This document shows positions 10,566 through 51,878 of a stretch of 64,000 bases of DNA, piece after piece. A program made the position numbers and the translations under genes. Origin of the DNA: Chitinophagaceae bacterium (GTDB lineage Bacteria > Bacteroidota > Bacteroidia > Chitinophagales > Chitinophagaceae); NCBI GenBank assembly GCA_947371755.1, contig CANBQT010000010.1, positions 1-64,000 on the forward strand, read 5' to 3'. The notes beneath the pieces are model-generated. The model was not told where the DNA came from. It saw only the letters and a program-made list of their open reading frames with translations, and made no database searches. The first letter of the stretch is position 1, and each line of letters begins with the position of its first letter.

Positions 10566-11396
10566 ATGAAAACCATTTTAGTTCCCACCGATTTTTCGAA
10601 TACTGCCCGCAATGCTGCGAAATATGCATTAGCGCTAGCCAATCAAATTAATGCGTCAAGAATTGTATTATACAATGCATTTCAGGCGCCTATCAGTGTA
10701 GACCCTATGGTACCCACTGTTCAGTTATTAGATATGGATCTTATGAAAAAAAGTAGCGAAGAAGGATTAGCACAATTCAAAGAAGAATTGAAATCTGCTC
10801 CTTTTGGAAATATCGAAATGGATACTTTTAGTGAGTACAACGTACTTACAGGTGGCATCAATGATTTGTCAAAAGCGGTAGCTGCAGATTTTATTGTGAT
10901 GGGGATCACAGGAGGTGGTGCCGTAACTGAAACCCTAATCGGGAGTAATGCGGTGAGTGTATCTCTCCATTCTACCATTCCCGTAATCATTGTTCCGCCA
11001 GAAGCTACATTCAAAAAGATTGATCATGTTTTATTAGCCTGCGACTTTAAACAAGTGCTAGAAACTACCCCCGTTAAATTACTGAAATCATTATTAGAAA
11101 ATACAAGTGCTGCATTACATATTTTGCACGTGAACAGTAGTTCTGAAAAAGCAATTGATGTTTCATTCGAGAGTATGGTATTGGATAGCTTATTAAAAAC
11201 AAATAATCCGCAATACCATTTCGTAGAAAATGAATCCTTTACTGATGGCATCAATCAGTTTGCAGATAGTAATAATATAGACCTGATTATTACAATTCCT
11301 AAAAAGCATGGATTCTTCGATAGCATCTTCAAGAAAAGTCACACCAAGCGATTAGCTTTTCATAGTCATCTTCCTTTGATGGTGATGCACGATTAA
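10566..11396 (+). CDS. Universal stress protein, tandem UspA domains
   Basis: A 276-residue cytoplasmic protein of two UspA folds. The first (about 1-145) starts KTILVPTDFSNTARNAAKYAL and has the nucleotide-binding pattern GITGGGAVTETLIGSNAVSV followed by STIPVIIVP, so it probably binds ATP. The second (about 155-276) keeps the fold (HVLLACDF, LHILHVNSS, DLIITIPKK, HSHLPLMVMHD) but lacks the glycine loop, so it is probably a non-binding partner domain. The precise stress role is unknown. It stands alone after the thiolase terminator. Its stop runs directly into a heptad repeat and terminator shared with nadE. Confidence 0.88.
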   Translation: MKTILVPTDFSNTARNAAKYALALANQINASRIVLYNAFQAPISVDPMVPTVQLLDMDLMKKSSEEGLAQFKEELKSAPFGNIEMDTFSEYNVLTGGINDLSKAVAADFIVMGITGGGAVTETLIGSNAVSVSLHSTIPVIIVPPEATFKKIDHVLLACDFKQVLETTPVKLLKSLLENTSAALHILHVNSSSEKAIDVSFESMVLDSLLKTNNPQYHFVENESFTDGINQFADSNNIDLIITIPKKHGFFDSIFKKSHTKRLAFHSHLPLMVMHD

Positions 11397-11503
11397 AAAA
11401 GTAAAAATTAAAAAGTAAAAATTAAAAAGTAAAGGCGCATTCAAGTGATTGATTGCGCCTTTACTTTATTCCTTTCCTTTTTACTTTTTAATTTTTACTT
11501 TTA
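11396..11503. repeat. Convergent-junction module: heptad repeats flanking a bidirectional hairpin
   Basis: From the universal stress protein stop the plus strand runs in strict 7-base steps: AAAAAGT, AAAAATT, AAAAAGT, AAAAATT, AAAAAGT. A 14-bp stem follows (11426-11439 with 11454-11467; core GGCGCA/TGCGCC). Then comes the mirror image (11477-11503: TTTTTACTTTTTAATTTT and so on), which on the minus strand is the same heptad array trailing the nadE stop. The hairpin with A and T tracts on either side should terminate transcription in both directions. Confidence 0.8.
11426..11467. terminator. Bidirectional terminator between the universal stress gene and nadE
   Basis: Perfect 14-bp stem, 14-base loop containing TTCAAGTGATTGA, with A-rich left and T-rich right flanks. 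It can serve both convergent genes. Confidence 0.8.
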
Positions 11504-13183
11504 AGTTAAGTATTTCCCTACAATAGGTACTCTTCTACCTACTCCAAATGCTTTGGGTGAAATGCGGATAATTGGACAGAACTGGTTGCGTTTGTATTCG
11601 TTATTGTTTACCATTTTTAATGTGCGATCAACTAATGATTCGTCATAACCTAATGCCTTGATCTCTGCAGGACCTTGGCGCTTTTCAATGTATTGATATA
11701 ATATTTGATCAAGTACCAAATAGTCTGGTAAGCTATCACTATCTTTTTGGTTGGGGCGCAATTCCGCACTTGGTGCTTTTTCAATAATATTTAGGGGAAT
11801 AATTTCATTGTCTTTATTAATATAACGAGCTAATGCATACACTTGCAATTTGTAACAATCACCTAGTACTCCCAGGCCTCCAGCCATATCTCCATAGAGT
11901 GTGCCATAGCCAGTAGCGAGTTCGCTTTTATTGGAAGTGTTGAGTAAAATATATCCCAATTTATTAGAGATAGCCATTAGTAAATTTCCCCTGCTCCTGC
12001 TTTGAATATTTTCTTCTGCCAGTGAAAATGGCAGACCATTAAAAATGGGGTCTAAAGTTTTTAAGAACGTTTCATATACCTCATTGATCCGCACTATATC
12101 AAACGGGTTGCCTAAATTTTTACTCAATGCTACAGCATCATTTACAGAATGTTCGGTAGAATAAGGAGAGGGCATTAAGATAGCACGAACATTTTCTTTG
12201 CCCAAAGCATCACATGCCAGCGCTAACACAACTGCAGAATCAATACCTCCTGAAGAACCTAGTATGGCTTTTGTGAATCCCATCTTAGAAAAATAATCTC
12301 TGATGCCTAAGATTAAAGCATCATAAACCTGGGCAATATTTAATTCAGGTTCTAATGAAGCGGGATTTAATTCTTTATCTGGTACACGACTGGCAGGTTC
12401 CACTATACTTGTATCTATTGTGCCATCATCAAGTAACTCAACAGATGCTAAGGCTTCTTCAAACAAAGGTAAAGCCTTACACAAATTAGCATCCTTATCA
12501 AAGATCAATGAAGCACCATCAAAGACAATTTCTGTTTGACTACCTACCGCATTGCAATAAAACATTGGGATCTTATATTTCAACACGTTCGCTTTTATCA
12601 CAGATTTTCTGTCTTCGTCATGTGTATAATCGAAAGGTGATGCGCTAAGGTTCAGCATCAGATCTGGCTGCTGTTCCATTAAATGATCCATCGGGCAAAT
12701 ACGGTACAATGGATTATCTCCTAAATTCCAAATGTCTTCACAAATAGTAATCGCTAATTTTTTTCCTTTAAAGTGCACTACATTCCATTCGAAAGCAGGC
12801 TCAAAATATCGGTACTCATCAAACACATCATAAGTTGGTAAAAGTGTTTTGTGTATCTCTGCCTTTATTTCTTTTTCATATAAAAAATAGGCGGCATTAA
12901 ATAAGCCTTTCCCTTTCTGGTATAAATTTTTTGCTGGTGAACCAATGATCACTCCAATGCTGTCTGCGTGTAATTTGATCTGTTCGATTGATGCCTCGCA
13001 CTTACTGATAAAATCATTGAACTCCACAAAATCTCTGGCAGGATAGCCGCATACACTCATTTCGCTGAAAAGGATCAGATCGCCCCCTGCTTCTTTTGCA
13101 GTTTCAATTGCCTGAATAATCTTTTGTGTATTGTATTCAAAATTGCCAATATGGTAATTTTGTTGTGCTAAGAAAATCTTCAT
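11501..13183 (-). CDS. nadE: Glutamine-dependent NAD+ synthase
   Basis: A 560-residue two-domain enzyme making NAD+ from nicotinate adenine dinucleotide with ammonia drawn from glutamine. The N-terminal nitrilase-type glutaminase (about 1-250) has the Glu-Lys-Cys triad: LFSEMSVCGYP (Glu), HKTLLPTYDVFDEYRYF (Lys) and ITICEDIWN (Cys). The C-terminal synthetase (about 275-560) has the PP-loop LGSSGGIDSAVVLAL. Length suits the bacterial glutaminase-fused form. It is divergent from gldB; nadE and gldB are also neighbours in other Bacteroidota, which supports the gldB call. The heptad array begins at its stop. Confidence 0.96.
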   Translation of the reverse strand: MKIFLAQQNYHIGNFEYNTQKIIQAIETAKEAGGDLILFSEMSVCGYPARDFVEFNDFISKCEASIEQIKLHADSIGVIIGSPAKNLYQKGKGLFNAAYFLYEKEIKAEIHKTLLPTYDVFDEYRYFEPAFEWNVVHFKGKKLAITICEDIWNLGDNPLYRICPMDHLMEQQPDLMLNLSASPFDYTHDEDRKSVIKANVLKYKIPMFYCNAVGSQTEIVFDGASLIFDKDANLCKALPLFEEALASVELLDDGTIDTSIVEPASRVPDKELNPASLEPELNIAQVYDALILGIRDYFSKMGFTKAILGSSGGIDSAVVLALACDALGKENVRAILMPSPYSTEHSVNDAVALSKNLGNPFDIVRINEVYETFLKTLDPIFNGLPFSLAEENIQSRSRGNLLMAISNKLGYILLNTSNKSELATGYGTLYGDMAGGLGVLGDCYKLQVYALARYINKDNEIIPLNIIEKAPSAELRPNQKDSDSLPDYLVLDQILYQYIEKRQGPAEIKALGYDESLVDRTLKMVNNNEYKRNQFCPIIRISPKAFGVGRRVPIVGKYLT

Positions 13184-16342: not shown

Positions 16343-18010
16343 ATGGCTGAAGCGATATTAATGCCCCGTCTAAGTGATACAATGACAGAGGGCGTCATTG
16401 CTGCCTGGCACAAACAGGTGGGCGATTCTGTAAAAAAAGGCGATTTATTAGCTGAAATTGAAACAGACAAAGCTACTATGGAGCTGGAAAGCTACCAGGA
16501 AGGTGTTTTGTTGCATATAGGTACTGCTGCCGGTGGTAAACTACAAGTGAACGATTTGTTGGCGATTTTAGGAAAAGCCGGTGAAGATGTGAGTGCATTA
16601 ATTGCACAACACAGTGGCGGATCTGCTCCAGTAGCAGCGAAAACTGAAGAAGCTCCTGCCTCAATTGCAAGTGCTTCCCCTGTAAGTTCTGCAACTCCTG
16701 CTACGGCATCTTTGGATATCAGTTCATTGGAAGAAGTAGTTTTAATGCCAAGGTTAAGTGATACTATGACTGAAGGCGTAATCGCAGGATGGCAGAAGCA
16801 AGTAGGTGATTCTGTAAAAAAAGGGGATGTGTTGGCCGATATCGAAACAGATAAAGCTACCATGGAACTGGAAAGTTATAAAGATGGTGTATTGTTGTAC
16901 CAAGGTGCCAAAGCAGGTGAGAAGATCTTAGTGAACGACTTACTTTGTATTATTGGAAAGCCGGGTCAAAATATTACTGATATAGTTGCCGCCTCTAAAA
17001 ATATCGGAACAGCTGCACCAATAGTAGCTCCAGCTGCGCCAGCACAAACTGCTTCAAACCCTGCACCAGTTGCAGCAGCACCAGTTGCTGAAGTGGTTGT
17101 AAACGAAGGAAGAATTTTTGCTTCTCCACTAGCTAAAAAAATAGCAAGTGAAAAAGGAATCGATTTGCGTTTTGTAAAAGGTACTGGCGATAATGGTCGC
17201 ATTACTAAGTCAGATATAGATAGTTATACTCCAGCAGCTTCTACAAGCGTTGCTCCTGCAGCAACATCAGCAGCTGCTGCTCCTGCAAAAGCAGCAACTA
17301 CTCCTGTGGTTTCTGTACCTGCCGGTGAAGTTAGTTTCGTAGATTCTCCGGTTTCTCAAATGCGCAAAGTCATTGCACGCAGATTGAGCGAAAGCTTATT
17401 CACTGCGCCGCATTTTTATCTTACTATGAGTATTGATATGGATGCTGCTGTAGCAGCCCGTACCAAGATCAATGAAGTTGCAAAATCCAAGATCAGTTTT
17501 AATGATATGGTGTTGAAAGCAACAGCTTTATCATTGAAACAACATCCTAAAGTAAATAGCAGTTGGTTAGGCGATACTATCCGAACTAATTATCATGTAA
17601 ATATTGGCGTAGCAGTAGCGGTAGAAGAAGGTTTATTAGTTCCTGTAGTTCGTTTTGCTGATGGTAAATCTTTAAGTCAAATTGGAGCTGAAGTAAAAGA
17701 CTTTGCACAAAAAGCAAAGGACAAAAAATTGCAACCATCCGATTGGGAAGGCAGCACTTTTACCATCTCTAACTTAGGCATGTTTGGTATCGAAGAATTT
17801 ACAGCTATCATCAATCCTCCAGATGCTTGTATTTTAGCAGTAGGTGGAATCTCTCAGGTTCCTGTTGTTAAAAACGGACAAGTGGTTCCAGGAAATGTAA
17901 TGAAAGTAACATTAAGCTGCGACCATAGGGTGGTAGATGGGGCTACTGGAGCAGCATTCCTGCAAACGCTGAAAGGCCTGTTAGAAGAGCCTCTTCGCAT
18001 GCTTGTTTAA
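16343..18010 (+). CDS. aceF: Pyruvate dehydrogenase complex E2, dihydrolipoamide acetyltransferase
   Basis: A 555-residue E2 subunit. Two lipoyl domains carry the lipoylated lysines Lys43 and Lys170, both in the identical motif IETDKATMELES. Ala/Pro-rich linkers join them to a peripheral subunit-binding domain (about 258-295; IFASPLAKKIASEKGID) and the catalytic acetyltransferase core ending with SCDHRVVDGATGAAFLQ, where His and Asp are catalytic. It transfers acetyl groups to CoA and forms the core of the complex. E1 and E3 genes are not in the window. It follows icd. Its stop leads straight into an A-rich heptad tract and a strong terminator. Confidence 0.94.
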   Translation: MAEAILMPRLSDTMTEGVIAAWHKQVGDSVKKGDLLAEIETDKATMELESYQEGVLLHIGTAAGGKLQVNDLLAILGKAGEDVSALIAQHSGGSAPVAAKTEEAPASIASASPVSSATPATASLDISSLEEVVLMPRLSDTMTEGVIAGWQKQVGDSVKKGDVLADIETDKATMELESYKDGVLLYQGAKAGEKILVNDLLCIIGKPGQNITDIVAASKNIGTAAPIVAPAAPAQTASNPAPVAAAPVAEVVVNEGRIFASPLAKKIASEKGIDLRFVKGTGDNGRITKSDIDSYTPAASTSVAPAATSAAAAPAKAATTPVVSVPAGEVSFVDSPVSQMRKVIARRLSESLFTAPHFYLTMSIDMDAAVAARTKINEVAKSKISFNDMVLKATALSLKQHPKVNSSWLGDTIRTNYHVNIGVAVAVEEGLLVPVVRFADGKSLSQIGAEVKDFAQKAKDKKLQPSDWEGSTFTISNLGMFGIEEFTAIINPPDACILAVGGISQVPVVKNGQVVPGNVMKVTLSCDHRVVDGATGAAFLQTLKGLLEEPLRMLV

Positions 18011-18034
18011 AATGAAAAATTAAAAATTAAAAAT

Positions 18035-18077
18035 AAAAAAGAAGAGCGCATTCAATTTGGATGCGCTCTTCTTTTTT
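18035..18077. terminator. Bidirectional terminator between E2 and the metalloprotease
   Basis: 17-bp perfect stem with core AAGAGCGCAT/ATGCGCTCTT, 9-base loop, A run on the left and T run on the right. Its loop side shares GCGCATTCAA with the hairpin at 11426. Confidence 0.85.
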
Positions 18078-18096
18078 ATGTATTCCGTTTTAAAAA

Positions 18097-18128
18097 TTTC
18101 CCCTCTCAAGCATGCTTGGGAGGGGAAA
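18097..18128. repeat. REP-like palindrome (CCCCTC...GAGGGG)
   Basis: A 32-base near-perfect palindrome with outer arms TTTCCCCTC/GAGGGGAAA and centre AAGCATGCTT; one mismatched pair. Same outer arms as the two palindromes at 33978 and 34118. Confidence 0.65.
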
Positions 18129-18175
18129 CCTATTTTTCATTCTTACTCTTCTTTTTACTTTTTACTTTTTAAATT

Positions 18176-20584
18176 TTAATTTTCCTCACATCCAATCGGT
18201 GCGCCTGGTGCGATGTTTTTTGCGGGTGGAACGATGATGTCTTTAGGTTTATTAATTCTTTCAATAGCATAAGAATAATGTGCCTTTAAGTTTGGATTCG
18301 ACTTTGCTTTTTCAGTAGCAAATTGTTTCAAGGATTGTAAACGATCGAAACAAATTGATTTCACCTGAAAATTTGCATTGTCATTCATACTAAGAGAAAT
18401 AAGCCAGCTTAAAACCAATTGTTGTGATTGCAAGGAAACCTCTTGTTTCAAACCTTTATCAGTGGCGGATTTCCATGTTTTTTGAATAATGGCATCCAAT
18501 ACATCATCCCAACCTGGGGTACCTGCTTCTGCTTTCAATTGAACTAAACGATTGGCTCTTTCTGTATTGAATAAAAACGCTAATTCATAATTGGTTAAAG
18601 CTTCTGCCGCTGCTAAAGGGTCGAAACTCATACCGGTTCTTTTTTCAAATAATTCTCCAATACCATAATACATGGGTGGGCGAGGAGGAATCAACTGAAT
18701 GATTTTTTCAGAGAGGGTAAGTGTTTCAGGACTTAAACAATCTAGTGCCGCATTTAATGCTTTTGTCTGCACTTCTTTGGATAAGATGGTTGGTTTTACT
18801 TGTGCATCAGCCTTTACGCTGTAACTATAATTCATGCCACCTATTAATTTGCAAGTGGCCTCTAATTGATAACGATGATAATTGTAAACAGGTACCAATA
18901 CGTCTTCCAATTTTGCTAAAGGAGTGTTAGGAGCAATTGCATCAGCAGAAAAATGATCAAGGGCAACTTTACGAACTGCTAACACTTGTTTTAATGCGTC
19001 TGCTGCATCAGAACCGTTATCCCATAAGTGTGCATATGGGTGCAATCCGCTTGCAGCGCGTGCATCAGCATCTGCAATGAATAATAAACCCATTTTAGTA
19101 TTATCCTCTAATAATTGATGTAATGCATCAGCTTCATTTGTACCCGGAGCAAAATCAGTATATCCATATTGAATAGCACGTTTGTCCCAAGCTCCAATTT
19201 CATTAGTATATACATCAGAAAAATCTATTTGTCCCTTACTATTCAATACTACATTAGGATGCGGATAATCCATTACAGATGCACGATTATTTACACTGGA
19301 TGCATAATTGTGTTGAAGACCTAAAGTGTGTCCCACTTCGTGTGCAGCTAATTGACGGATACGCTGTAATGCTGCAAGTTTCATGGTTTCAGGAACAGGT
19401 TTACCTGTTTCATACGGTGATAAAAGACCAGTGAAAATTAAATAGTCTTGCCTTATACGAAGAGAACCAAGCGTTACTTGTCCTTTTATAATTTCTCCAG
19501 TTCTTGGATCTGTAATGGAAGCACCATAACTCCATCCACGTGTAGACCGATGAACCCAGTTAATAAGGTTATAACGGATATCCATTGGATCTGCTGAGTC
19601 GGGTAGGACCTTTACAACAAATGCATCTTTAAAACCTGCTGCTTCGTAGGCCTGGTTCCACCATTTCGCACCATCAATTAAGGCAGAGCGGATAGGTTCT
19701 GGTGTTCCGTTGTCAACATAATAAATGATCGGCTTGACTGGCTCGCTGATGGCAGCAGTGGGATCTTTTTTCTGTAAGCGATGACGGGAAATATACATTT
19801 GCTCGATGGGATCGGTGAAAGGTGTACTATAGTCAAAATAGGAAATTCCAAAATACCCGCTTCGGATATCGTATTTTCTTGGATGGTATTGGTTGTCGGG
19901 TAATTGAACAAAGGAATGGTGCATCCTCAAACTGATAGCTTCTGATGAGGGCGTTACACTATTTACAAACTTTCCGGCATCACTACCCCCCACAAAACTG
20001 ATGGTAGCTTCAAATTCGCTGTTTAAAGGGAAGTTCTTAGTACCTGCTAGATAAATGGCTGATCTTGCTTCATTAAATGCATAGGTGCCTTGTTTCATGG
20101 CTCGGATGCGGTCTGCAACGCCTTGAGCATCGCGAAGAAAAAAATTGGTTGCGTCTACCAATACTTTACCGTTTTCTTCTTCTTCCACCACAAAATTTCC
20201 AATGATCGATTGTGCAAAAGATTGGCGAACCGCTCTTTGTTCATTGGTATTTTCAGTAACGGCGCGGTATTCGTAGTTGGGCTGAACCATCAATACTTTC
20301 TTACCTACTCTGTTAAAATAGACAATTCTAGAGTTGCCAATTAGGCCTCTGTCAAGACCAATGTCATTTGAACCAAGACCAGCAGGCAATGAATTCACGT
20401 ATAAAAATTCGGAATCGAATTTGTCAATCTGCAACCAGATTTTTCCTGAAGTAGCATCCCACCAAAAATTAAAATATCCTTCAAACTTTTGCATGTTTTT
20501 TGTTTTCTCAATAATTTTTGAATTGGATTGAGCAAAAGAAAATATGCTTAAAAGGCAGGCAAGAAAAAAAGTAATAAAACGCAT
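18176..20584 (-). CDS. Secreted zinc-dependent metalloprotease (DUF5117/DUF4953 type)
   Basis: An 802-residue protein with a signal peptide (MRFITFFLACLLSIFSFAQ). The metzincin-type motif H415-E416-x-x-H419-x-x-G-x-x-H425 (HEVGHTLGLQH) binds zinc. Upstream is the DUF5117-like region (VNSLPAGLGSNDIGLDRG, YRAVTENTNEQRAVRQSFA). After the active site comes a DUF4953-like region (YASSVNNRASVMDYPHP, which supplies the Met-turn 'SVMDYP'). This family is common in Bacteroidota and expected in the periplasm or outside the cell; the substrate is unknown. No T9SS tail is seen (the end is GCEEN). It follows the histone-like gene on the same strand. Confidence 0.88.
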   Translation of the reverse strand: MRFITFFLACLLSIFSFAQSNSKIIEKTKNMQKFEGYFNFWWDATSGKIWLQIDKFDSEFLYVNSLPAGLGSNDIGLDRGLIGNSRIVYFNRVGKKVLMVQPNYEYRAVTENTNEQRAVRQSFAQSIIGNFVVEEEENGKVLVDATNFFLRDAQGVADRIRAMKQGTYAFNEARSAIYLAGTKNFPLNSEFEATISFVGGSDAGKFVNSVTPSSEAISLRMHHSFVQLPDNQYHPRKYDIRSGYFGISYFDYSTPFTDPIEQMYISRHRLQKKDPTAAISEPVKPIIYYVDNGTPEPIRSALIDGAKWWNQAYEAAGFKDAFVVKVLPDSADPMDIRYNLINWVHRSTRGWSYGASITDPRTGEIIKGQVTLGSLRIRQDYLIFTGLLSPYETGKPVPETMKLAALQRIRQLAAHEVGHTLGLQHNYASSVNNRASVMDYPHPNVVLNSKGQIDFSDVYTNEIGAWDKRAIQYGYTDFAPGTNEADALHQLLEDNTKMGLLFIADADARAASGLHPYAHLWDNGSDAADALKQVLAVRKVALDHFSADAIAPNTPLAKLEDVLVPVYNYHRYQLEATCKLIGGMNYSYSVKADAQVKPTILSKEVQTKALNAALDCLSPETLTLSEKIIQLIPPRPPMYYGIGELFEKRTGMSFDPLAAAEALTNYELAFLFNTERANRLVQLKAEAGTPGWDDVLDAIIQKTWKSATDKGLKQEVSLQSQQLVLSWLISLSMNDNANFQVKSICFDRLQSLKQFATEKAKSNPNLKAHYSYAIERINKPKDIIVPPAKNIAPGAPIGCEEN

Positions 20585-33500: not shown

Positions 33501-33935
33501 TTGATCCCGGATAGTTATGTAGAAAGCATCACAGAACGTTTGAGTTTATATACGAGATTGGATAGTTGTGAAAATGAATCAGAATTGCAATTGTTTCATG
33601 AAGAAATGATTGACAGGTTCGGTCCCATAGTTCCACAAGTAGATGATCTTTTTACAACAGTACGTTGTAGGTGGTTGGCAGTTGGGATTGGGTTTGAAAA
33701 AATGACCTTGAAAGAGAATACACTAAGATGTTATTTTATCAATCGTCCAGACTCTCCTTATTTTGAATCTGATTTATTTAAGAACGTGTTAGACTACCTC
33801 CAAAAAGGAACCAATAAAGCCCGTTTAAAGCAAGCAGGTAAAATGTTCTTACTGGTGGTGGATGATGTGAAAGACATGCAACAGATGCATCTGTTCTTGG
33901 AGAGAATGCATGAGAAAGTAAAAAGTCAAAAGTAA
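30510..33935 (+). CDS. mfd: Transcription-repair coupling factor
   Basis: A 1141-residue ATP-dependent translocase that removes RNA polymerase stalled at lesions and recruits UvrA. Domains in order: UvrB-like N-terminus (about 1-330), RNA polymerase-interacting CarD-like domain near residue 460 (PGDYVTHMDHGVGTYSGLQ), helicase motif I at about 607 (GDVGFGKTEVA), DEEQ box at about 708, QLRGRVGRSNKKAF in motif VI, and the C-terminal TRCF domain. The last six codons (KVKSQK) and the TAA stop fall inside an A-rich heptad array, so the exact C-terminus is set by the repeat. Possible alternative start at the internal ATG five codons in. Confidence 0.95.
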   Translation: MFDVMNIGELLEKYQKSPRLFQLADRLSIAQRIQENDIQKIFLKNLQGSSAEFIVCSVFMNEACAQLNHLVVLNDAEEAAYFQNTLENLTNALDLFYFPSSFKNRKNFRLLNSSHVMLRTEALTKLSGGGNKKIIVTYPEALFEKVVLPKTLTGNIIHIKVNETIQLNNLMELFVMYGFQRTDFVYEPGQFALRGGILDIYSYGNEKPYRVELFGNEVDSIRIFDPETQLSERKLLQVNIIPNVETQFETGEKVSLLEFLPENTVVWLKDWDVIKGKIEQQEEELDGFMGLVEDGYRMNNSDEEDDTRIVKTVTKEDFVSANTINELLISRDIVEFGYRPHLANFEIEFDTRTQPSFNRQFDLLIKDLKAHEAAKYEIFIFAEQARQLERLSSIFTDLQTEIQFVPVATSIHEGFIDEDLKVVCYTDHQIFQRYHKYKVKQAYNKNKALTLKTLRDLQPGDYVTHMDHGVGTYSGLQKIEINGKIQEAVRIIYKDSDILYVNINSLHKISKYTGKEGTVPKINKLGSDVWNKLKEKTKTKVKEIAFDLIKLYAQRKAQQGFAHTPDTYMQTELEASFIYEDTPDQSKATADVKKDMESPSPMDRLVCGDVGFGKTEVAIRAAFKSCVDGKQAAVLVPTTILAFQHYKTFKDRLKDFPVTVDFINRFKSAKEKKDTLQRLEEGKIDIIIGTHGLLGKEVKFKNLGIMVIDEEQKFGVGHKEKLKTLKTNVDCLTLTATPIPRTLQFSLMGARDLSIMNTPPPNRQPIQTEVQVFNEDIIRDSIYYETERGGQVFFIHNRVHGLAEMCALIQGLCPDLSIGFAHGQLEGHELEERILDFIDRKYDVLVCTNIVESGVDIPNVNTIIINNAHHFGLSDLHQLRGRVGRSNKKAFCYLLGPPMSSLPTDSRKRLQTLEQFSDLGSGFQIAMRDLDIRGAGNMLGGEQSGFMAEIGFEMYQKILEEAIRELKRTEFKELFKEEISKQDDFVIDCTIDTDLEILIPDSYVESITERLSLYTRLDSCENESELQLFHEEMIDRFGPIVPQVDDLFTTVRCRWLAVGIGFEKMTLKENTLRCYFINRPDSPYFESDLFKNVLDYLQKGTNKARLKQAGKMFLLVVDDVKDMQQMHLFLERMHEKVKSQK

Positions 33936-33977
33936 AAAGTGAGAAGTGGGAGCTTGTAAGTTAATATAAAAAAAGTA

Positions 33978-34007
33978 CCCCTCATGTGCGCTTGCGCATA
34001 GGAGGGG
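33978..34007. repeat. REP-like palindrome, copy a
   Basis: Arms CCCCTC/GAGGGG and TGCGC/GCGCA around TT; 30 bases. Confidence 0.65.
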
Positions 34008-34117
34008 CAGCCGATGCCGCGCATGCGGTATACGGCGGGGAGGTTGTCTTTTGGAGAATGATACAAATTTGTTTTAAGAGAGTAACCACCCCAGTCATCG
34101 CTCAGTCGCTCGACTTT

Positions 34118-34147
34118 CCCCTCCAATGCGCAAGCGCACAGGAGGGG
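34118..34147. repeat. REP-like palindrome, copy b (inverted relative to copy a)
   Basis: Arms CCCCTCC/GGAGGGG with TGCGC/GCGCA; nearly the reverse complement of 33978-34007, differing at a few bases. Confidence 0.65.
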
Positions 34148-34160
34148 TGTATTGAAAAAT

Positions 34161-34188
34161 AAAAGCCTGGTATCACTACCAGGCTTTT
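34161..34188. terminator. Bidirectional terminator beside the 68-residue gene
   Basis: Perfect 12-bp stem AAAAGCCTGGTA/TACCAGGCTTTT with loop TCAC; T or A runs on both sides. Confidence 0.85.
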
Positions 34189-34218
34189 TACTTTTTACTC
34201 TTTAATTTTTTCTATTAA

Positions 34219-44788: not shown

Positions 44789-46189
44789 ATGCTTTTTATT
44801 ACAGAGGTCGTAGCACATTTTCATCCTGTACTGGTTCACCTTCCAATAGGCATATTATTGTTAGCTATTTTATTTCACTGGCTCAGTACCAAAGAAAAAT
44901 ATGCGGGCTTATCAACTGCAATACCGATAGCTTATCTAGCTGGTTCTATCACTGCATTATTATCCTGTATCACAGGATATTTATTATCAGGATCAGGAGA
45001 GTATGATGAAACAACTTTGAATTTACATCAATGGATGGGAATACTGGTAGCATTTGTTTCAGCAACTGGGTATTTGTTTTCTCGCACAAAAAATTATTCC
45101 CAATTAAAATGGGTTTCCATTGCATTATTAATTTTACTAACAGTAACAGGTCATCTGGGAGGAACACTCACACACGGTGAAGGTTATTTATGGAAAGGTT
45201 CTTCTGAATCTAAAAAAGATTCTACAGCTGGAACAAAATTAATTGCGAATGCGCAGGAAGCAATCGTATATAAAGATATTATTCAACCTATGTTACAGCA
45301 GAAATGCTATAATTGCCATGCAGCCACCAAGCAAAAAGGTGGATTGCGTTTGGATTCAGAAGAATGGATTATTAAAGGTGGGAAAAATGGCAAGGTATTA
45401 GTAGCCGGAAGTATTGATAGCAGTGAAGTTTATAAACGAATCATTCTTGACCCAATTGAAGAAAAGCATATGCCTCCCAAAGGCAAATCACAACTCACAG
45501 AACAAGAGAGGGTTTTACTACAATGGTGGATTGCATCAGGTGCTGATTTTGCAAAAAAATCTAAAGAGATTGCACAAACATCAGCAATTAAAACAGCTCT
45601 GAGTGCTTTAGAAAAAACAGAAATAGTTGCATCAAAAAGAACGGATGTTCCGGATGTAGAAATAGCAAAAGCTAGTGAAACGATATTAGAATCATTAAGA
45701 AAAAAATCAGTAACAGTATTTGAAATCTCAGCGAATAGTAATTGGTTAAGTGCCAATTTTGTAAACTGTACAAAATGGGACGCTGATATTGAAAAAAACA
45801 TGTCTTCTTTAAAAGATCAGTTGATCTGGTTGAAAATTCCCGGTGCTCAATTGCAAGAAAGTTCATGGAAAACTATAGCAGCACTTACCAATTTAAGAAG
45901 ACTAAGCGCAGAACATTCTAGTATCACAGATAAAGATTTGGAACAACTTAATTCATTAAATCAGTTGCAATATTTAAACCTGGTGGATACAAAAATAACA
46001 GCTAAAGGATTGTTGCAGTTGAAGGCTAATACGAATATTACTAACCTGTTTTTAAGTCGCACTGGAATTGGAGCTCAAGAATTCAATACTTTAAAATTAA
46101 AGTTTCCTAAAGCCGTCATTGATACTGGTGGGTATAATGTACCATTTATTGCTACAGATACGCAACAACTTCATCCGAAAGAAAAGTAA
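44789..46189 (+). CDS. DUF2231 membrane / cytochrome c-like / leucine-rich-repeat protein
   Basis: A 466-residue protein. The N-terminal DUF2231 region has four hydrophobic helices (HFHPVLVHLPIGILLLAILFH onward to about residue 125). A single PSCyt1-type cytochrome domain follows with C173-Y-N-C176-H177 and 'HMPPKGKSQLTEQERVLLQWW', then a short LRR segment (LTNLRRLSAEHSSITDKDLEQL; LQYLNLVDTKIT). The combination matches Planctomycete-style membrane cytochromes. Probably the membrane-anchored electron-transfer member of the cluster. The last codons (...PKEK) and the TAA stop are in the AAAGTAAAAG edge of a repeat element. Confidence 0.85.
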   Translation: MLFITEVVAHFHPVLVHLPIGILLLAILFHWLSTKEKYAGLSTAIPIAYLAGSITALLSCITGYLLSGSGEYDETTLNLHQWMGILVAFVSATGYLFSRTKNYSQLKWVSIALLILLTVTGHLGGTLTHGEGYLWKGSSESKKDSTAGTKLIANAQEAIVYKDIIQPMLQQKCYNCHAATKQKGGLRLDSEEWIIKGGKNGKVLVAGSIDSSEVYKRIILDPIEEKHMPPKGKSQLTEQERVLLQWWIASGADFAKKSKEIAQTSAIKTALSALEKTEIVASKRTDVPDVEIAKASETILESLRKKSVTVFEISANSNWLSANFVNCTKWDADIEKNMSSLKDQLIWLKIPGAQLQESSWKTIAALTNLRRLSAEHSSITDKDLEQLNSLNQLQYLNLVDTKITAKGLLQLKANTNITNLFLSRTGIGAQEFNTLKLKFPKAVIDTGGYNVPFIATDTQQLHPKEK

Positions 46190-46380
46190 AAGTGTTAACC
46201 CTAGGCTTCAGCCTAGGGATGAAGGGTACATAATAATTAGGGCTTTAGCCCATATGCTGTGCAGTTTCAAAAGAATGTTATTATTTTTCTTTGATGCGCC
46301 ACAGCATATGGGCTAAAGCCCAATTCGATATTTAGATCTGAATCCCCACCCTAAAGGGCGGGGTTAACACTTTTTACTTT
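46183..46380. repeat. Palindromic repeat element, copy 1 (about 198 bp)
   Basis: Bounded by AAAGTAAAAGTGTTAACCC and its inverted counterpart GGGTTAACACTTTTTACTTT. Inside: palindrome 46199-46218 (CCCTAGGCTTCAGCCTAGGG), a perfect 22-bp inverted repeat 46240-46261 / 46300-46321 whose own left part GGGCTTTAGCCC is palindromic, and palindrome 46344-46363 (CCCCACCCTAAAGGGCGGGG). It spans the junction of two convergent genes and supplies both stop codons. A second copy is at 50907. Confidence 0.85.
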
Positions 46381-47774
46381 AATTCTCCCACCATCTGCGC
46401 GGGCACTACCCATTCATCAAATTGTTCTGGCGTTACATAGCCAAGTTTCACTGCCATCTCTTTTAAAGTTGTTCCTTCTTTATGAGCTGTCTGTGCAATT
46501 TCTGCGGCTTTATAATAACCGATTTTGGTATTTAAAGAAGTAACCAGCATCAAACTATTATCCACATGCTTTTTGATGTTTGTTTCTATTGGAGCTAGTC
46601 CTACTGCACACTTATCATTGAAGCTTACACAACCATCACCGATTAATCTGGCACTGTGTAAGAAATTGTAGATCATCACAGGTTTAAATACATTCAATTC
46701 AAAATGTCCTGTTGCTCCGCCAATATTAATTGCTACATCATTTCCCATTACTTGTGCAGCAATCATTGTCAGAGCTTCGCACTGAGTTGGGTTTACTTTA
46801 CCTGGCATAATAGAAGATCCTGGTTCGTTATCAGGAATATGTAATTCGCCGATACCACTTCTTGGTCCAGATGAAAGCATACGAATATCGTTTGCAATTT
46901 TCATCAGACTTACTGCTACTGTTTTCAAAGCACCATGAGCTTCCACAATCGCATCATGTGCTGCAAGCGCTTCGAATTTGTTTTCTGCTGTAACAAATGG
47001 AAGTCCGGTTAAGTTCGCAATATGTTTTGCCACATTTACATCATAACCTTTAGGTGTATTGATGCCGGTACCAACTGCAGTTCCGCCCAATGCCAATTCG
47101 CTTAAGTGTGCTAGTGTATTGTTGATAGCTTTTAATCCATGTGTTAATTGAGAAACGTAACCGCTGATTTCCTGACCAAGTGTTAAAGGTGTTGCATCCA
47201 TGAAATGGGTACGGCCAATTTTTACAATGTGCATGAACTCTTTGCTCTTCAAAGCTAAAGTGTCTCTTAATTTAGTGATGCCAGGGATGGTGGTCTCTAA
47301 TAAGATTTTATACGCAGCAATGTGCATGGCAGTAGGGAAAGTATCGTTGGATGATTGAGATTTGTTAACATCATCATTAGGATGTAAGAATTTATCATGG
47401 TCTAATAAAGAACCCCCTTTGATAACATGTCCGCGATAAGCCACTACTTCGTTCACATTCATATTACTCTGAGTGCCAGAACCAGTTTGCCAGACAACCA
47501 ATGGGAATTGACCATTTAGTTTTCCTTCTAAAATCTCATCACAAACCTGACCAATCAAATTTGCCTTCTCTTCAGAAAGAACACCAGCATCAAAATTTGT
47601 TAATGCAGCTGCTTTTTTTAAGTAAGCAAAAGCCGCAATGATTTCTTTTGGCATTTTGTTGATGTCCTGAGCAATTTGAAAGTTTTCGATGCTACGTTGC
47701 GTCTGTGCCCCCCAATAAACTTCGGCAGGTACTTTTACCTCGCCCATGGTGTCTTTCTCGATACGGAATTCCAT
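46374..47774 (-). CDS. fumC: Fumarate hydratase, class II
   Basis: A 466-residue TCA-cycle enzyme converting fumarate to malate, oxygen-stable and without an iron-sulphur cluster. Signature [17 protein letters not shown] is intact (mobile-loop Ser). Other conserved segments: [50 protein letters not shown] and [12 protein letters not shown]. Length is normal. It stands alone with a TACCTTTG promoter box 38 bases upstream. The last residues GELK and the stop are read from the AAAGTAAAAAGT edge of the repeat element. Confidence 0.97.
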
Positions 47775-47812
47775 AACTGGTATTTATAAGTGGTGAATGT
47801 TTTTTTGCCCCG

Positions 47813-47820
47813 CAAAGGTA
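47813..47820 (-). promoter_or_regulatory. -7 box TACCTTTG of fumC
   Basis: Reads TACCTTTG on the minus strand, 38 bases before the fumC ATG. Confidence 0.5.
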
Positions 47821-47924
47821 GTGCAAGTGCGCAAAATGATAGAGGATAAAATATTTCCATTCGTCCTTTTTACTACTTTACCCATCTGTAATATTTAATA
47901 TCTTTCATTTTCTAAAACTAATCT

Positions 47925-50867
47925 ATGAAATTGATGAAATTATGGTTGGTAATACTGATGGCCGTAGGCATTCAGACATTATTGGCACAAGGTAAATACG
48001 AATGGAAGGAAGCAGTATCCGGGGGATATAGTTACAAATTCGTAACCAACGACCCCATGCAAGCTCGTTTTTATACCCTTAAAAACGGACTTACGGTGGT
48101 GCTTTCTGTTAATAAAAAAGAGCCAAGGATCTCTGTTAAGATCCCGGTTAGAGCTGGGTCAAATACCGATCCCAAGGATCATACAGGTTTGGCACACTAT
48201 TTAGAGCATTTATTATTTAAGGGTACCGATAAGTTCGGAACCCTTGATTGGGCAAAAGAAAAGCCTCTACTGGATCAAATAGATGCCTTGTATGAGCAAT
48301 ACAATCACACAACAGATTCTGCAAAGCGTAAAGAAATTTATAAGCAGATCGATAAGGTTTCTGGTGAAGCTTCAAAATTTGCAATTGCTAATGAGTACGA
48401 CAAATTAATGTCGGCCATGGGTGCTCAGGGCACAAATGCACATACCTGGGTTGAAGAAACGGTGTATGAAGAAGATATTCCTTCGAATGCCTTGAATAAA
48501 TTTCTGACGGTTCAGGCTGAACGCTTTAGAAATCCAATTTTGCGCATTTTCCATACAGAACTCGAAGCGGTGTATGAAGAAAAAAATCGGTCACTCGATA
48601 ACGATGGAAGTAAAAGTAATGAAGCCTTGTATGCAGCATTATTTCCTACACATAATTATGGTCAACAAACAACCATCGGAACCATAGAGCATTTGAAAAA
48701 TCCTTCTTTGAATGCAATTCGCGACTATTACTACAAATACTATGTTCCCAATAATATGGCGTTTGTATTAGTAGGTGACTTGGATCCTGATGTAACCATT
48801 AAAATGCTGGATGAGAAATTCAGTTACATGAAAACGAAATCCATCGATGAGTATAAACCTGCACCTGAAAAAGCATTGCAGGGTCCAATCGTGAAAGAGG
48901 TATTCGGGCCATCAGCAGAAACTATGCGTATCGGTTTCAGAACAGCTGGTGCAGATACAAAAGATGAAATGATGGCAGATTTATTGTCTTCTGTTTTATC
49001 AAATGGCAAAGCAGGATTATTGGATTTGAATTTGAATAAACAACAAAAGGTTTTAGGTGCAAGCGCAGGTGTTCGACCATTTAAAGACTATGGTATTTTT
49101 ATTTTATCTGCTTCGCCTAAACAAGGACAAACTTTAGAACAAGTAAAAGACCTTTTGATGGAGCAAATAGATATTGTAAAGAAAGGAAACTTTGATGAGT
49201 CATTAATTAAAGCCATTGTTTCAAACGAAAAATTGGCCCAGCTGCAAGGCATTGAGAATAACGACAATCGTGCAAGTATCATTACTGATGTATTTATAAA
49301 AAATAAAGGCATCGGTTGGAAAAATGCTGCTTCAGAGCAAGATAATATGGCAAGGGTGACTAAGCAAGAATTGGTTGACTTTGCAAATAAATTTTTCACT
49401 GATAATAATTATGTGGTAATCTATAAGCGCAAGGGAGTTGATAAAAGCATTGTAAAAGTAGATAAGCCAACTATCACACCTGTTGAAACAAATGCGGGAA
49501 AGCAATCTCCTTTTGTAAAGCAAGTAAATGATATGCCTTTATTAAATATGAAGCCTGTTTTCCTTGATTTCAGTAAGGATTTTCAAAAATCAAAAGTAGG
49601 CAAGGCAGAAGTTTTATATGTGCAGAATAAAGACAATAGTCTATTTCGTTTATATTATAAGTTTGATATTGGAAGCTGGAATTATAAATTGTTACCATTG
49701 GCAGTACAATATTTGCAGTTCTTGAATACGGATAAATACACAGCAGAACAAATCAGTAAAGAATTTTATAATCTTGCTTGTAGTTATAGCGTAGGGCCTG
49801 GCACAGAAGAATCCATGGTAACTATTACCGGGCTGCAAGAAAATTTTGAAAAGGCAGTGAGTCTTTTTGAATATGCCATTAAAAATTGTAAGGAAGATAA
49901 TGCTGCTTTTGAGGGATTGAAAAATCGGTTAGCAAAATCAAGATCAAATACAAAACTTAACAAGAATGCCATTATCGGGGCTTTAAGAAGTTATGGAATG
50001 TATGGAGCAAAAAATCCCACCAATTATACTTTAACAGATGAAGAAATCAAGAATTTAAAAGCATCTGATTTAGTAGCGATACTTCATGGTTTATTAGACT
50101 TTGAACATAAGATCATTTATTACGGACCACAAACTTTACCAGTATTCAATAGCACCGTTGCTAAAGTACATACCCTTCCGGTTACTTGGGCTACTGCAGC
50201 ACCTGCTGTGAAGTTTGACCGTATCAAGCAAACAAAGAATGAAGTATTGTTCGCAGACTATGATATGGTTCAAGCTGAAATTTATTGGTTGCGTTCTTTA
50301 GATAATTATGATGCGAAAAAAGAAGCAACAGTTAATCTTTTCAATGGTTATTTTGGTGCAGGAAGTATGGGTGCGATTGTTTTCCAAACCATACGTGAAT
50401 CAAAAGCATTAGCCTATTCAACCGGAGCTGTCTTGCAAACGCCAGCTAAAAAAGAAGACCCCTATTCATTCCTTGCATATGTTGGAACGCAGGCTGACAA
50501 GTTGAATGAAGCAATAGTTGGTATGAATGAATTGCTTACTGATCTTCCAAAGAACGAACAATCATTAAGTGATGCAAAAAAATCGTTGATGAAAGATCTG
50601 GAAACAGAAAGAATTACCAACGATAACATCATCTTTACTTATTTGGCGTATAAGAAAAAAGGAATTGACTATGACTTGCGTAAAGATATTTATGCAAAGG
50701 CGAATAGTTTATCATTCGAAGACCTGAAGCAATTGCATGGCAGTTCTATTTCTGGTAAGCCATTTACTTATACCATTGTAGGGTCAGACAAAAAAGTAAA
50801 AATGGATGACTTGAAAAAGTATGGTGAAGTGAAACGCGTTAGCTTGGAAGAACTGTTTGGGTACTAA
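47925..50867 (+). CDS. M16-family zinc metallopeptidase, secreted (pitrilysin-like)
   Basis: A 980-residue protein with a signal peptide (MKLMKLWLVILMAVGIQTLLA). The inverted zinc motif is H91-Y-L-E94-H95 (HYLEHLLFKG), with the third ligand Glu in EAVYEEKNRSLDN at about 218. It has the four-domain length of a single-chain M16 enzyme: a catalytic N-terminal half and a non-catalytic C-terminal half with FGAGSMGAIVFQTIRESKALAYS, which has the substrate-binding Arg and Tyr. Probably degrades peptides in the periplasm. It stands alone, with TATCTTTC (one base off consensus) upstream. Five A-rich heptads begin at its stop codon. Confidence 0.93.
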   Translation: MKLMKLWLVILMAVGIQTLLAQGKYEWKEAVSGGYSYKFVTNDPMQARFYTLKNGLTVVLSVNKKEPRISVKIPVRAGSNTDPKDHTGLAHYLEHLLFKGTDKFGTLDWAKEKPLLDQIDALYEQYNHTTDSAKRKEIYKQIDKVSGEASKFAIANEYDKLMSAMGAQGTNAHTWVEETVYEEDIPSNALNKFLTVQAERFRNPILRIFHTELEAVYEEKNRSLDNDGSKSNEALYAALFPTHNYGQQTTIGTIEHLKNPSLNAIRDYYYKYYVPNNMAFVLVGDLDPDVTIKMLDEKFSYMKTKSIDEYKPAPEKALQGPIVKEVFGPSAETMRIGFRTAGADTKDEMMADLLSSVLSNGKAGLLDLNLNKQQKVLGASAGVRPFKDYGIFILSASPKQGQTLEQVKDLLMEQIDIVKKGNFDESLIKAIVSNEKLAQLQGIENNDNRASIITDVFIKNKGIGWKNAASEQDNMARVTKQELVDFANKFFTDNNYVVIYKRKGVDKSIVKVDKPTITPVETNAGKQSPFVKQVNDMPLLNMKPVFLDFSKDFQKSKVGKAEVLYVQNKDNSLFRLYYKFDIGSWNYKLLPLAVQYLQFLNTDKYTAEQISKEFYNLACSYSVGPGTEESMVTITGLQENFEKAVSLFEYAIKNCKEDNAAFEGLKNRLAKSRSNTKLNKNAIIGALRSYGMYGAKNPTNYTLTDEEIKNLKASDLVAILHGLLDFEHKIIYYGPQTLPVFNSTVAKVHTLPVTWATAAPAVKFDRIKQTKNEVLFADYDMVQAEIYWLRSLDNYDAKKEATVNLFNGYFGAGSMGAIVFQTIRESKALAYSTGAVLQTPAKKEDPYSFLAYVGTQADKLNEAIVGMNELLTDLPKNEQSLSDAKKSLMKDLETERITNDNIIFTYLAYKKKGIDYDLRKDIYAKANSLSFEDLKQLHGSSISGKPFTYTIVGSDKKVKMDDLKKYGEVKRVSLEELFGY

Positions 50868-51084
50868 AAAAAGTAAAAAGTAAAAAGTAAAAAGTAAAAA
50901 GTAAAACTGGTTAACCCTGGGCTTCAGCCTAGGGTTGGGGCAAGTATAAAAATTTGGGCTTTAGCCCTGACGCTGTGGAACTTCTAGGAAAAAAAATATC
51001 TTTCAGTCGAAGTATCACAGCGTGAGGGCTAAAGCCCAATTCATTTTACATATTCTTCCCCACCCTAAAGGGCGGGGTTAACAG
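50864..51084. repeat. Heptad array plus palindromic repeat element, copy 2
   Basis: 50866-50906 carries five 7-base units (GTAAAAA) starting at the M16 stop. The element proper, 50907-51084, repeats the plan of the copy at 46183: palindrome 50915-50934 (CCCTGGGCTTCAGCCTAGGG), inverted repeat 50956-50977 / 51016-51037 (22 bp, one mismatch) and palindrome 51058-51077 (identical to copy 1). GGTTAACCC and GGGTTAACA lie at the ends. Loops differ from copy 1 while stems are kept. Confidence 0.85.
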
Positions 51085-51086
51085 CT

Positions 51087-51860
51087 TTATTTCCCTCTAA
51101 ATGTTGCTTTTCTTTTTTCTAGAAAGGCAGTCGTTCCCTCCACTCTGTCTTCTGTATCGAAACTGTCTGCAAATCCTTTTATTTCTGTTTCATAGCCATC
51201 TTTAGATTCGTCAAACACCGCATTGGCGGCATCAATACATTTGGCTACAGCGATGGGTGCTTTTGAGTTGATGATCGATAATATTTCAATTGCTTTAATT
51301 AATAATTGATCAGTTGCTACTACATAATTTACCAGTCCATATGACAATGCAGTAGTACCATCAATCATACCAGCACTCATTAATAATTCAAGAGCTCTTC
51401 CTTTACCAATTAATTGAACCAATCTTTGGGTGCCACCATAGCCGGGAATGATACCTAAGTTTACTTCGGGTTGTCCGAATTTTGCGTTCTCAGATGCAAT
51501 TCTAAAATGGCAACTCATGGCCAATTCACAACCCCCACCCAGTGCAAAACCATTCACACATGCAATGATGGGTTTGGGTGAGTTTTCAATTTTGAAAAAA
51601 GTATCCTGACCAGCTTTTGACAACATCATGGCATCTGCCTTACTCAATTGATTGAACTCACTGATATCGGCTCCTGCCACAAATGCTTTAGGACCAGCAC
51701 CCGTAATGATTGCTGATTTGATGGCATCGTTTGAGTACACTTCATCAAGCGCATTATTAAGATCCACAAAAACGGCAGCATTCAACGCATTCAGTTTGTC
51801 TGGACGATTGATAGTAATAGTAAATATTCCGTTTTCGAGATTTGTAAGTAAAGTTGACAT
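51087..51860 (-). CDS. Enoyl-CoA hydratase
   Basis: A 257-residue crotonase-fold enzyme adding water to trans-2-enoyl-CoA. The oxyanion loop FVAGADISEF and GFALGGGCELAMSC are present, and both catalytic glutamates are kept (GGGCELAMSC and FGQPEVNLGIIPGYGG), so it is probably a genuine hydratase rather than a variant. Length is normal. It is the last gene of a three-gene minus-strand run gltX / B12-binding / this gene, 18 bases after its neighbour. Its natural chain-length range cannot be read from the sequence. Confidence 0.93.
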   Translation of the reverse strand: MSTLLTNLENGIFTITINRPDKLNALNAAVFVDLNNALDEVYSNDAIKSAIITGAGPKAFVAGADISEFNQLSKADAMMLSKAGQDTFFKIENSPKPIIACVNGFALGGGCELAMSCHFRIASENAKFGQPEVNLGIIPGYGGTQRLVQLIGKGRALELLMSAGMIDGTTALSYGLVNYVVATDQLLIKAIEILSIINSKAPIAVAKCIDAANAVFDESKDGYETEIKGFADSFDTEDRVEGTTAFLEKRKATFRGK

Positions 51861-51878
51861 GATTTTATTTTTGAATTT

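Follow-up and report, generated by a model that had tools for sequence, protein, structure and literature searches.

Transposases of the IS200/IS605 group bind single-stranded DNA at hairpins, and a guide at the hairpin foot determines where they cut, as described in the sections of Quentin 2018 (PMC6006769) drawn on here. The same sections sort these enzymes by signature, with Y---Q--HH marking subclass 1.2 and Y---NP marking class 2, to which 26 listed TIRYTs are assigned. Subclass 1.2 is presented there as being without REPs, without IS properties, and generally without terminal IS200 structures. The automatic REP search in those sections relied on a GT[AG]G foot, and a search of this type would miss the two-hairpin modules described below. 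For RAYTs, the excerpts of Nunvar 2010 used here (PMC2817692) report no changes of chromosomal location, and the portion of the RepRanger paper (PMC12306157) consulted gives REP counts for three Bacteroidota genomes with transposases unmentioned. We found no report in the open-access PubMed Central literature that ties REPs to subclass 1.2.

The window, a 64,000-nucleotide stretch of DNA from a Chitinophagaceae bacterium, had been described in the first-pass annotation as carrying two look-alike structured elements. Both are present at the places claimed, within the tighter limits given below, and in each the parts follow in the order outer palindrome, inner palindrome GGGCTTTAGCCC, loop, inner palindrome, outer palindrome. 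The copies are 77% identical (query 5-180). Each element is an inverted pair of two unlike modules, an A-end and a B-end, that face outward. Modules were scored with R1, a covariance model built from 30 halves of this genome that were selected from 55 pattern matches (31 kept at one stage). The four half-modules of the window reach 72-80 bits with this model, whose training set consists partly of copies 1 and 2 themselves, and the only other R1 match in the window, at 19 bits, overlaps copy 1. The features are as follows.

44789-46189, + strand: upstream neighbour of copy 1, 466 aa, stop codon 4 nt ahead of the element
46194-46368, no strand assigned: copy 1, full inverted element, 175 bp, GTTAAC at both limits
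46194-46265, + strand: copy 1 left module (A-end), R1 80.0 bits, outer type A; GTTAA 46194-46198, outer hairpin 46199-46218, inner palindrome 46240-46251 followed by ATATGCTGTG
46296-46368, - strand: copy 1 right module (B-end), R1 76.1 bits, outer type B; inner palindrome 46310-46321, outer hairpin 46344-46363, TTAAC 46364-46368
46374-47774, - strand: convergent neighbour of copy 1, 466 aa, product presumably fumarase-like, stop codon 5 nt past the element
47925-50867, + strand: upstream neighbour of copy 2, 980 aa, which we take to be an M16-type peptidase
50910-51082, no strand assigned: copy 2, full inverted element, 173 bp, GTTAAC at both limits
50910-50981, + strand: copy 2 left module (A-end), R1 78.2 bits, type A; outer hairpin 50915-50934, inner palindrome 50956-50967
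51012-51082, - strand: copy 2 right module (B-end), R1 72.3 bits, type B; inner palindrome 51026-51037, outer hairpin 51058-51077
51087-51860, - strand: convergent neighbour of copy 2, 257 aa, product presumably enoyl-CoA hydratase-like

Two other kinds of repeat were seen in the window. Low-complexity inverted tails, AAAGTAAAAAGT / ACTTTTTACTTT, flank many intergenic regions (11381-11507, 18007-18181, 33912-34210, 50867-50905, and 46370-46385), and the copy sites in two relatives have tails similar in style with different letters. At 33977-34148 there is a 31-nt inverted repeat with CCCCTC...GAGGGG ends, its arms 94% complementary and 110 nt apart; by eye, it shows no kinship to the two-hairpin module family.

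Searching the genome with a covariance model, a check proposed along with the original description, showed that the two copies belong to a family, with 38 module matches in the genome (R1, E <= 0.01). The type-A hairpin pattern with up to three mismatches occurs 16 times, and a reversed-pattern control gave 0. A module is ~72 nt long and consists of two tandem hairpins: GTTAA, a variable outer hairpin (8 bp, with a TTCA or TTTA loop), a 20-25 nt spacer, and the inner hairpin, whose palindrome is followed by NN-CGCTGTG in most copies. The genome holds 12 inverted pairs, counting the one that contains the transposase gene tnpA (see below); the 11 full tnpA-less elements measure 173-179 bp, and single modules also occur alone. 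One right half, C10:64143-64212, is not in the R1 alignment. All 12 full elements combine a G-type with a C-type outer hairpin (alignment column 12), for which an exact count gives 0.0015 under a criterion picked after inspection of the data. By eye and by column counts, nothing is conserved outside GTTAAC in the 11 elements that would mark a target site or a duplication. They are without the target-site duplication and simple terminal repeat that define a MITE of a DDE transposon, and they have the inverted orientation and many intergenic copies that define a REPIN. Insertion into hairpin loops is suggested for only 2 of the 11 (L001 and L007).

The palindromes had also been likened to REP/BIME elements moved by RAYT transposases, and a search for a Y1/IS200-like gene found one, on a contig other than the window's. 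It corresponds to the single Y1_Tnp match in the genome at E <= 0.01 (C58:577-921, E 2.6e-24), and it is nested between inverted modules.

C58:427-500, + strand: module on one side of tnpA
C58:508-927: tnpA gene, 139 aa
C58:1007-1079, - strand: module on the other side of tnpA
C58:129-200, 1132-1202, and 1251-1325: further module matches near tnpA

Next to this transposase unit, at C58 ~209-446 (L031), lies a tandem array of about six 36-bp GTTAACC(C)-like units, which are 5' halves of the outer hairpin with the hairpin itself absent.

In NCBIfam, TnpA scores 58 bits with transpos_IS200 (cut-off 55) and 27.2 bits with REP_Tyr_transpos (NF047646; cut-off 80). The TnpA proteins of eight relatives show the same pattern, none of them passing the REP_Tyr cut-off, so that all nine fall under it. 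The HUH motif and the Y---Q--HH signature are present in 58/58 homologues, and it is on this signature, rather than on placement in the published tree, that we assign the protein to TnpA-Y1 subclass 1.2. In a structure comparison, the AlphaFold model of the G035 protein (pLDDT 84.7) best matched the transposases of ISDra2 and IS608 (E 3.9e-10), and the Escherichia coli REP transposase ranked 30. Of 91 genomes, 71 have a single copy of the gene, and one copy is also what this genome has. Thus, the part of the comparison that stands is a Y1 gene nested in the same inverted modules, here and in most close homologues; a canonical RAYT it is not, given 27 of 80 bits with REP_Tyr, Y---Q--HH versus Y---NP, and TAAC- or TTGCC-like letters versus GT[AG]G.

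The association between gene and modules extends across relatives. Among 43 other loci carrying the closest homologues of TnpA (the partial gene of L054 stands outside the tallies), R1, trained on this genome alone, found the gene flanked by outward modules on both sides in 30 loci, on a single side in 8, and on neither in 5 (E <= 0.1, within 200 nt). The gaps between gene and module were -7 to +18 nt in 23 of the 30, on each side. The background was 3 matches in 210.7 kb of fumC/ECH loci (the ECH loci of G027, G035, and G062 being scored separately) versus 79 in 94.5 kb of tnpA loci. A model-free test compared the flank upstream of the gene with the reverse-complemented downstream flank; similarity reached z >= 4 in 35 of 44 clade loci versus 0 of 40 control genes, although the test is blind to whether copies of palindromes are direct or inverted. 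Fifteen more distant tnpA loci gave no R1 match at E <= 1, and the model-free test found some flank similarity in 9 of 14 of them (L040-L052 and L055). The flank repeats of these distant TnpA genes, whose products have the subclass 1.2 signature, carry hairpins of other kinds and are possibly further REP types.

Across 395 genomes of the class, gene and modules occur together in 53, the gene only in 38, modules only in 17, and neither in 287 (odds ratio 23.5, p 2.5e-26 by Fisher's test with relatedness ignored). Module presence is an undercount here because at most 12 candidates were scored per genome. Modules are present in 47 of 59 genomes with strong gene matches and in 6 of 32 with weaker ones, and for 12 of the 17 module-only genomes a congener has the gene. 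The near relative G027 has 14 module matches and no TnpA match at E <= 1e-6. In this genome the foot motif before the hairpin is GTTAA; other species have, by eye, TAAC- or TTGCC-like letters there. When mapped on the TnpA tree, the TTGCC-type guide requires 4 changes versus 9.2 when shuffled (0/500 as low); the guide types were assigned by eye, and shared ancestry by itself could produce such clustering. The two-hairpin repeats are a real and widespread family of the REP/transposase kind with a tightly linked transposase. The association of transposase and modules is an observation, from which mobilisation of the modules by the transposase would follow as an interpretation.

Sites differ between related species in the presence of both gene and elements. 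The transposase island that this genome has beside purB is missing from four relatives: neither tnpA nor a full module pair is found there in G035, G027, G062, or G033. A terminator-like hairpin in the G035 purB gap matches R1 at 22.4 bits, and the gene that follows is a different one in G033. G035 has one tnpA, 73% identical, elsewhere in its genome, and the counterpart of that site in this genome, C10:64143-64350 just beyond the window, contains two modules but lacks tnpA. On C14, a ~410-bp double element here stands against 17 bp in G027 and a single module-like match in G035. The reverse case lies within the window.

51861-51878: gap without an element in the window; in G035 the gap is filled by two outward module matches, C42:50651-50710 and 50748-50812

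The neighbours of copy 1 are kept, by eye, in G062 and G033, where the element is absent, and those of copy 2 in G035, G062, and G023, again with the element absent. Empty sites in relatives had been suggested as a test of the two copies, and no base-exact one was found because the relatives are too distant. In G062 and G035 the DNA at the sites of the two copies is not bare but holds different palindromes, of which those in G062 are weak R1 matches (16.6, 20.7, and 15.9 bits). The presence/absence contrasts are contrasts between species and not base-exact insertions. The 16.6-bit match, at the copy 1 site of G062 (L100 1412-1469), is a palindrome, TTAACCCCATGGCATGCCATGGGGTTAA, that could be related to the outer hairpin as a double-foot form.

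Both copies form very stable structures. Folded as DNA, each has a z value of -9.9, and copy 1 folded as RNA reaches -11.0 (0 of 200 shuffles equally stable). The outer hairpin carries compensatory changes. Within this genome's 30 halves, standard pairs fill 93.3% of pair cells, a value that falls to 46.7% or 61.5% when the partner is shifted by one column, and double-change cells number 42 versus 17.7 +- 4.3 in shuffles. In 84 matches from other species, in an alignment fitted to the R1 model, the outer helix is 97.9% paired, both sides have changed in 7 of 8 pairs, and double-change cells number 228 versus 72 +- 6.1. Further pair types showed no excess over shuffles (311/500 in this genome and 141/500 in other species). 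The covariation originally described for the middle repeat holds for both window copies and nearly so for a third copy, but it does not hold for the 12 full elements in general: their left and right arms match at 72 versus 72.7 +- 4.1 for randomly paired arms (p 0.59), and we reject middle-stem covariation as a general rule.

At the gathering score, Rfam finds no known RNA family at the elements, its sole match in the window being a tRNA elsewhere, and a known structured RNA family was rejected on that basis; below threshold there are microRNA hairpin matches. The elements could instead be RNA 3'-end structures kept by the host, as bidirectional terminators or protectors of mRNA ends, with the transposase link reflecting a distant origin only. 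Besides the stable folds, this explanation would account for the position of all 15 genome sites outside ORFs, many a few nucleotides from stop codons, and for an element shared by C24 of this genome and C32 of G027, a site filled in both species. We nevertheless regard it as unlikely. A simple scan of 46100-46450, around copy 1, found no terminator-like or promoter-like site, and an intrinsic terminator was rejected for that copy. The convergent setting noted at the outset is true of both window copies but is not a rule: of 14 scorable sites, 6 are convergent (the window copies among them), 7 co-directional, and 1 divergent, leaving 8 that are not convergent. The same modules also sit tightly around a transposase gene, and three relatives do without the element between the copy 2 genes.

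It is also conceivable that the modules are passengers in MITEs spread by DDE-type transposases, with tnpA merely lying within one. Modules do occur in such a setting in other genomes. In G122, two copies of 154 bp are 99.4% identical and carry an 18-bp terminal repeat, which is found at the limits of module-free MITEs as well; this MITE family (L254, L255, L278, and L279) has the module pair mid-element in some members only. In G110 (L195-L202), a MITE with the terminal repeat AGAGCCTGTTTAAA contains an inner-outer-inner module pair and is present in several near-identical copies. Since the MITEs that enclose these near-identical modules have terminal repeats of their own, modules can be carried by another transposase, and we rejected the G110 and G122 copies as proof of TnpA-driven movement. 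As a general account, however, the passenger explanation is improbable: the 11 elements of this genome share nothing outside GTTAAC, and why modules bracket tnpA in 30 of 43 loci and co-occur with the gene would be left unexplained. A complete subclass 1.1-like IS200 element whose short copies are internal deletions (MITEs), with no REP-like life, would fit the same ends in the same order in the short copies and the tnpA unit and the IS200 name given by NCBIfam, but it is hardly likely given a gene that is mostly single-copy, ends that are inverted two-hairpin modules, single modules that occur alone, and a likeness of the loops to tnpA that was sought by eye only and not established.

Our preferred reading is a REP-like system. 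The two copies probably belong to a Bacteroidota REP system as non-autonomous REPIN-like elements that a subclass 1.2 transposase moves in trans. Two outward-facing, unlike modules make up the 173-179 bp element, and the unit with tnpA between them would be the parent. Each end has an outer hairpin with a guide-like 5'-foot motif (GTTAA here; TAAC- or TTGCC-like elsewhere), followed by the inner hairpin GGCTTTAGCC. By analogy with IS200/IS605 transposases, the 139-aa HUH/single-tyrosine TnpA would most likely bind both hairpins of an end in single-stranded DNA, its tyrosine would most likely cleave beside TAAC, which may be guide or cut site, and the enzyme would most likely move elements in trans into intergenic gaps. 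We likewise infer the single-strand route and the identity of TnpA, rather than another enzyme, as the mover.

If this model is correct, a transposase subclass published as lacking IS ends or REPs has a candidate substrate, and its activity becomes directly testable. More tentatively, and with the odds in our view slightly against it, subclass 1.2 could be a third REP-mobilising system that has so far escaped notice and is widespread in Bacteroidia; its two-sided ends would have two hairpins and use a TAAC-/TTGCC-type guide, and its transposase unit would still change chromosomal position. A REP system outside the class 2 TnpAREP enzymes would bear on whether IS200-like ancestors gave rise to domesticated REP transposases a single time or repeatedly. 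The repeat model is usable for annotation of Bacteroidia genomes.

Overall, the system combines features of several described ones. It shares with subclass 1.2 as published the Y---Q--HH signature, a length of about 139-148 aa, low copy number, and occurrence in Bacteroidetes, but that subclass is described as having no REP, whereas here modules bracket the gene and co-occur with it. With REPIN/BIME elements and their class 2 RAYT (the REPtron), as described in Nunvar 2010 and Quentin 2018, it has in common dispersed intergenic palindromes, inverted pairs, and one flanked transposase gene in low copy number; it differs in its subclass 1.2 signature, the absence of the NP motif and of a GT[AG]G head, and two hairpins per end. 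The position of the gene also differs between this genome (G000) and G035, unlike what is reported for RAYTs. TIRtrons/TIRYTs, in the part of Di Nocera 2013 (PMC3733652) consulted, likewise have a tyrosine transposase gene within long terminal inverted repeats, some doubly palindromic and some repeated in the genome, but the signature here is that of subclass 1.2 and the repeat sequences are others. The inner-outer-inner forms of other genomes, with one shared outer hairpin and the motif on both feet, resemble the double-foot REPs of subclass 2.4 as outlined in Quentin 2018, although transposase subclass, motif, and inner hairpins are different. Finally, the HUH/Y1 fold, subterminal hairpins, and unlike left and right ends recall IS200/IS605 elements such as IS608 and ISDra2, whereas the ends here are inverted repeats of two hairpins each and the gene is mostly single-copy.
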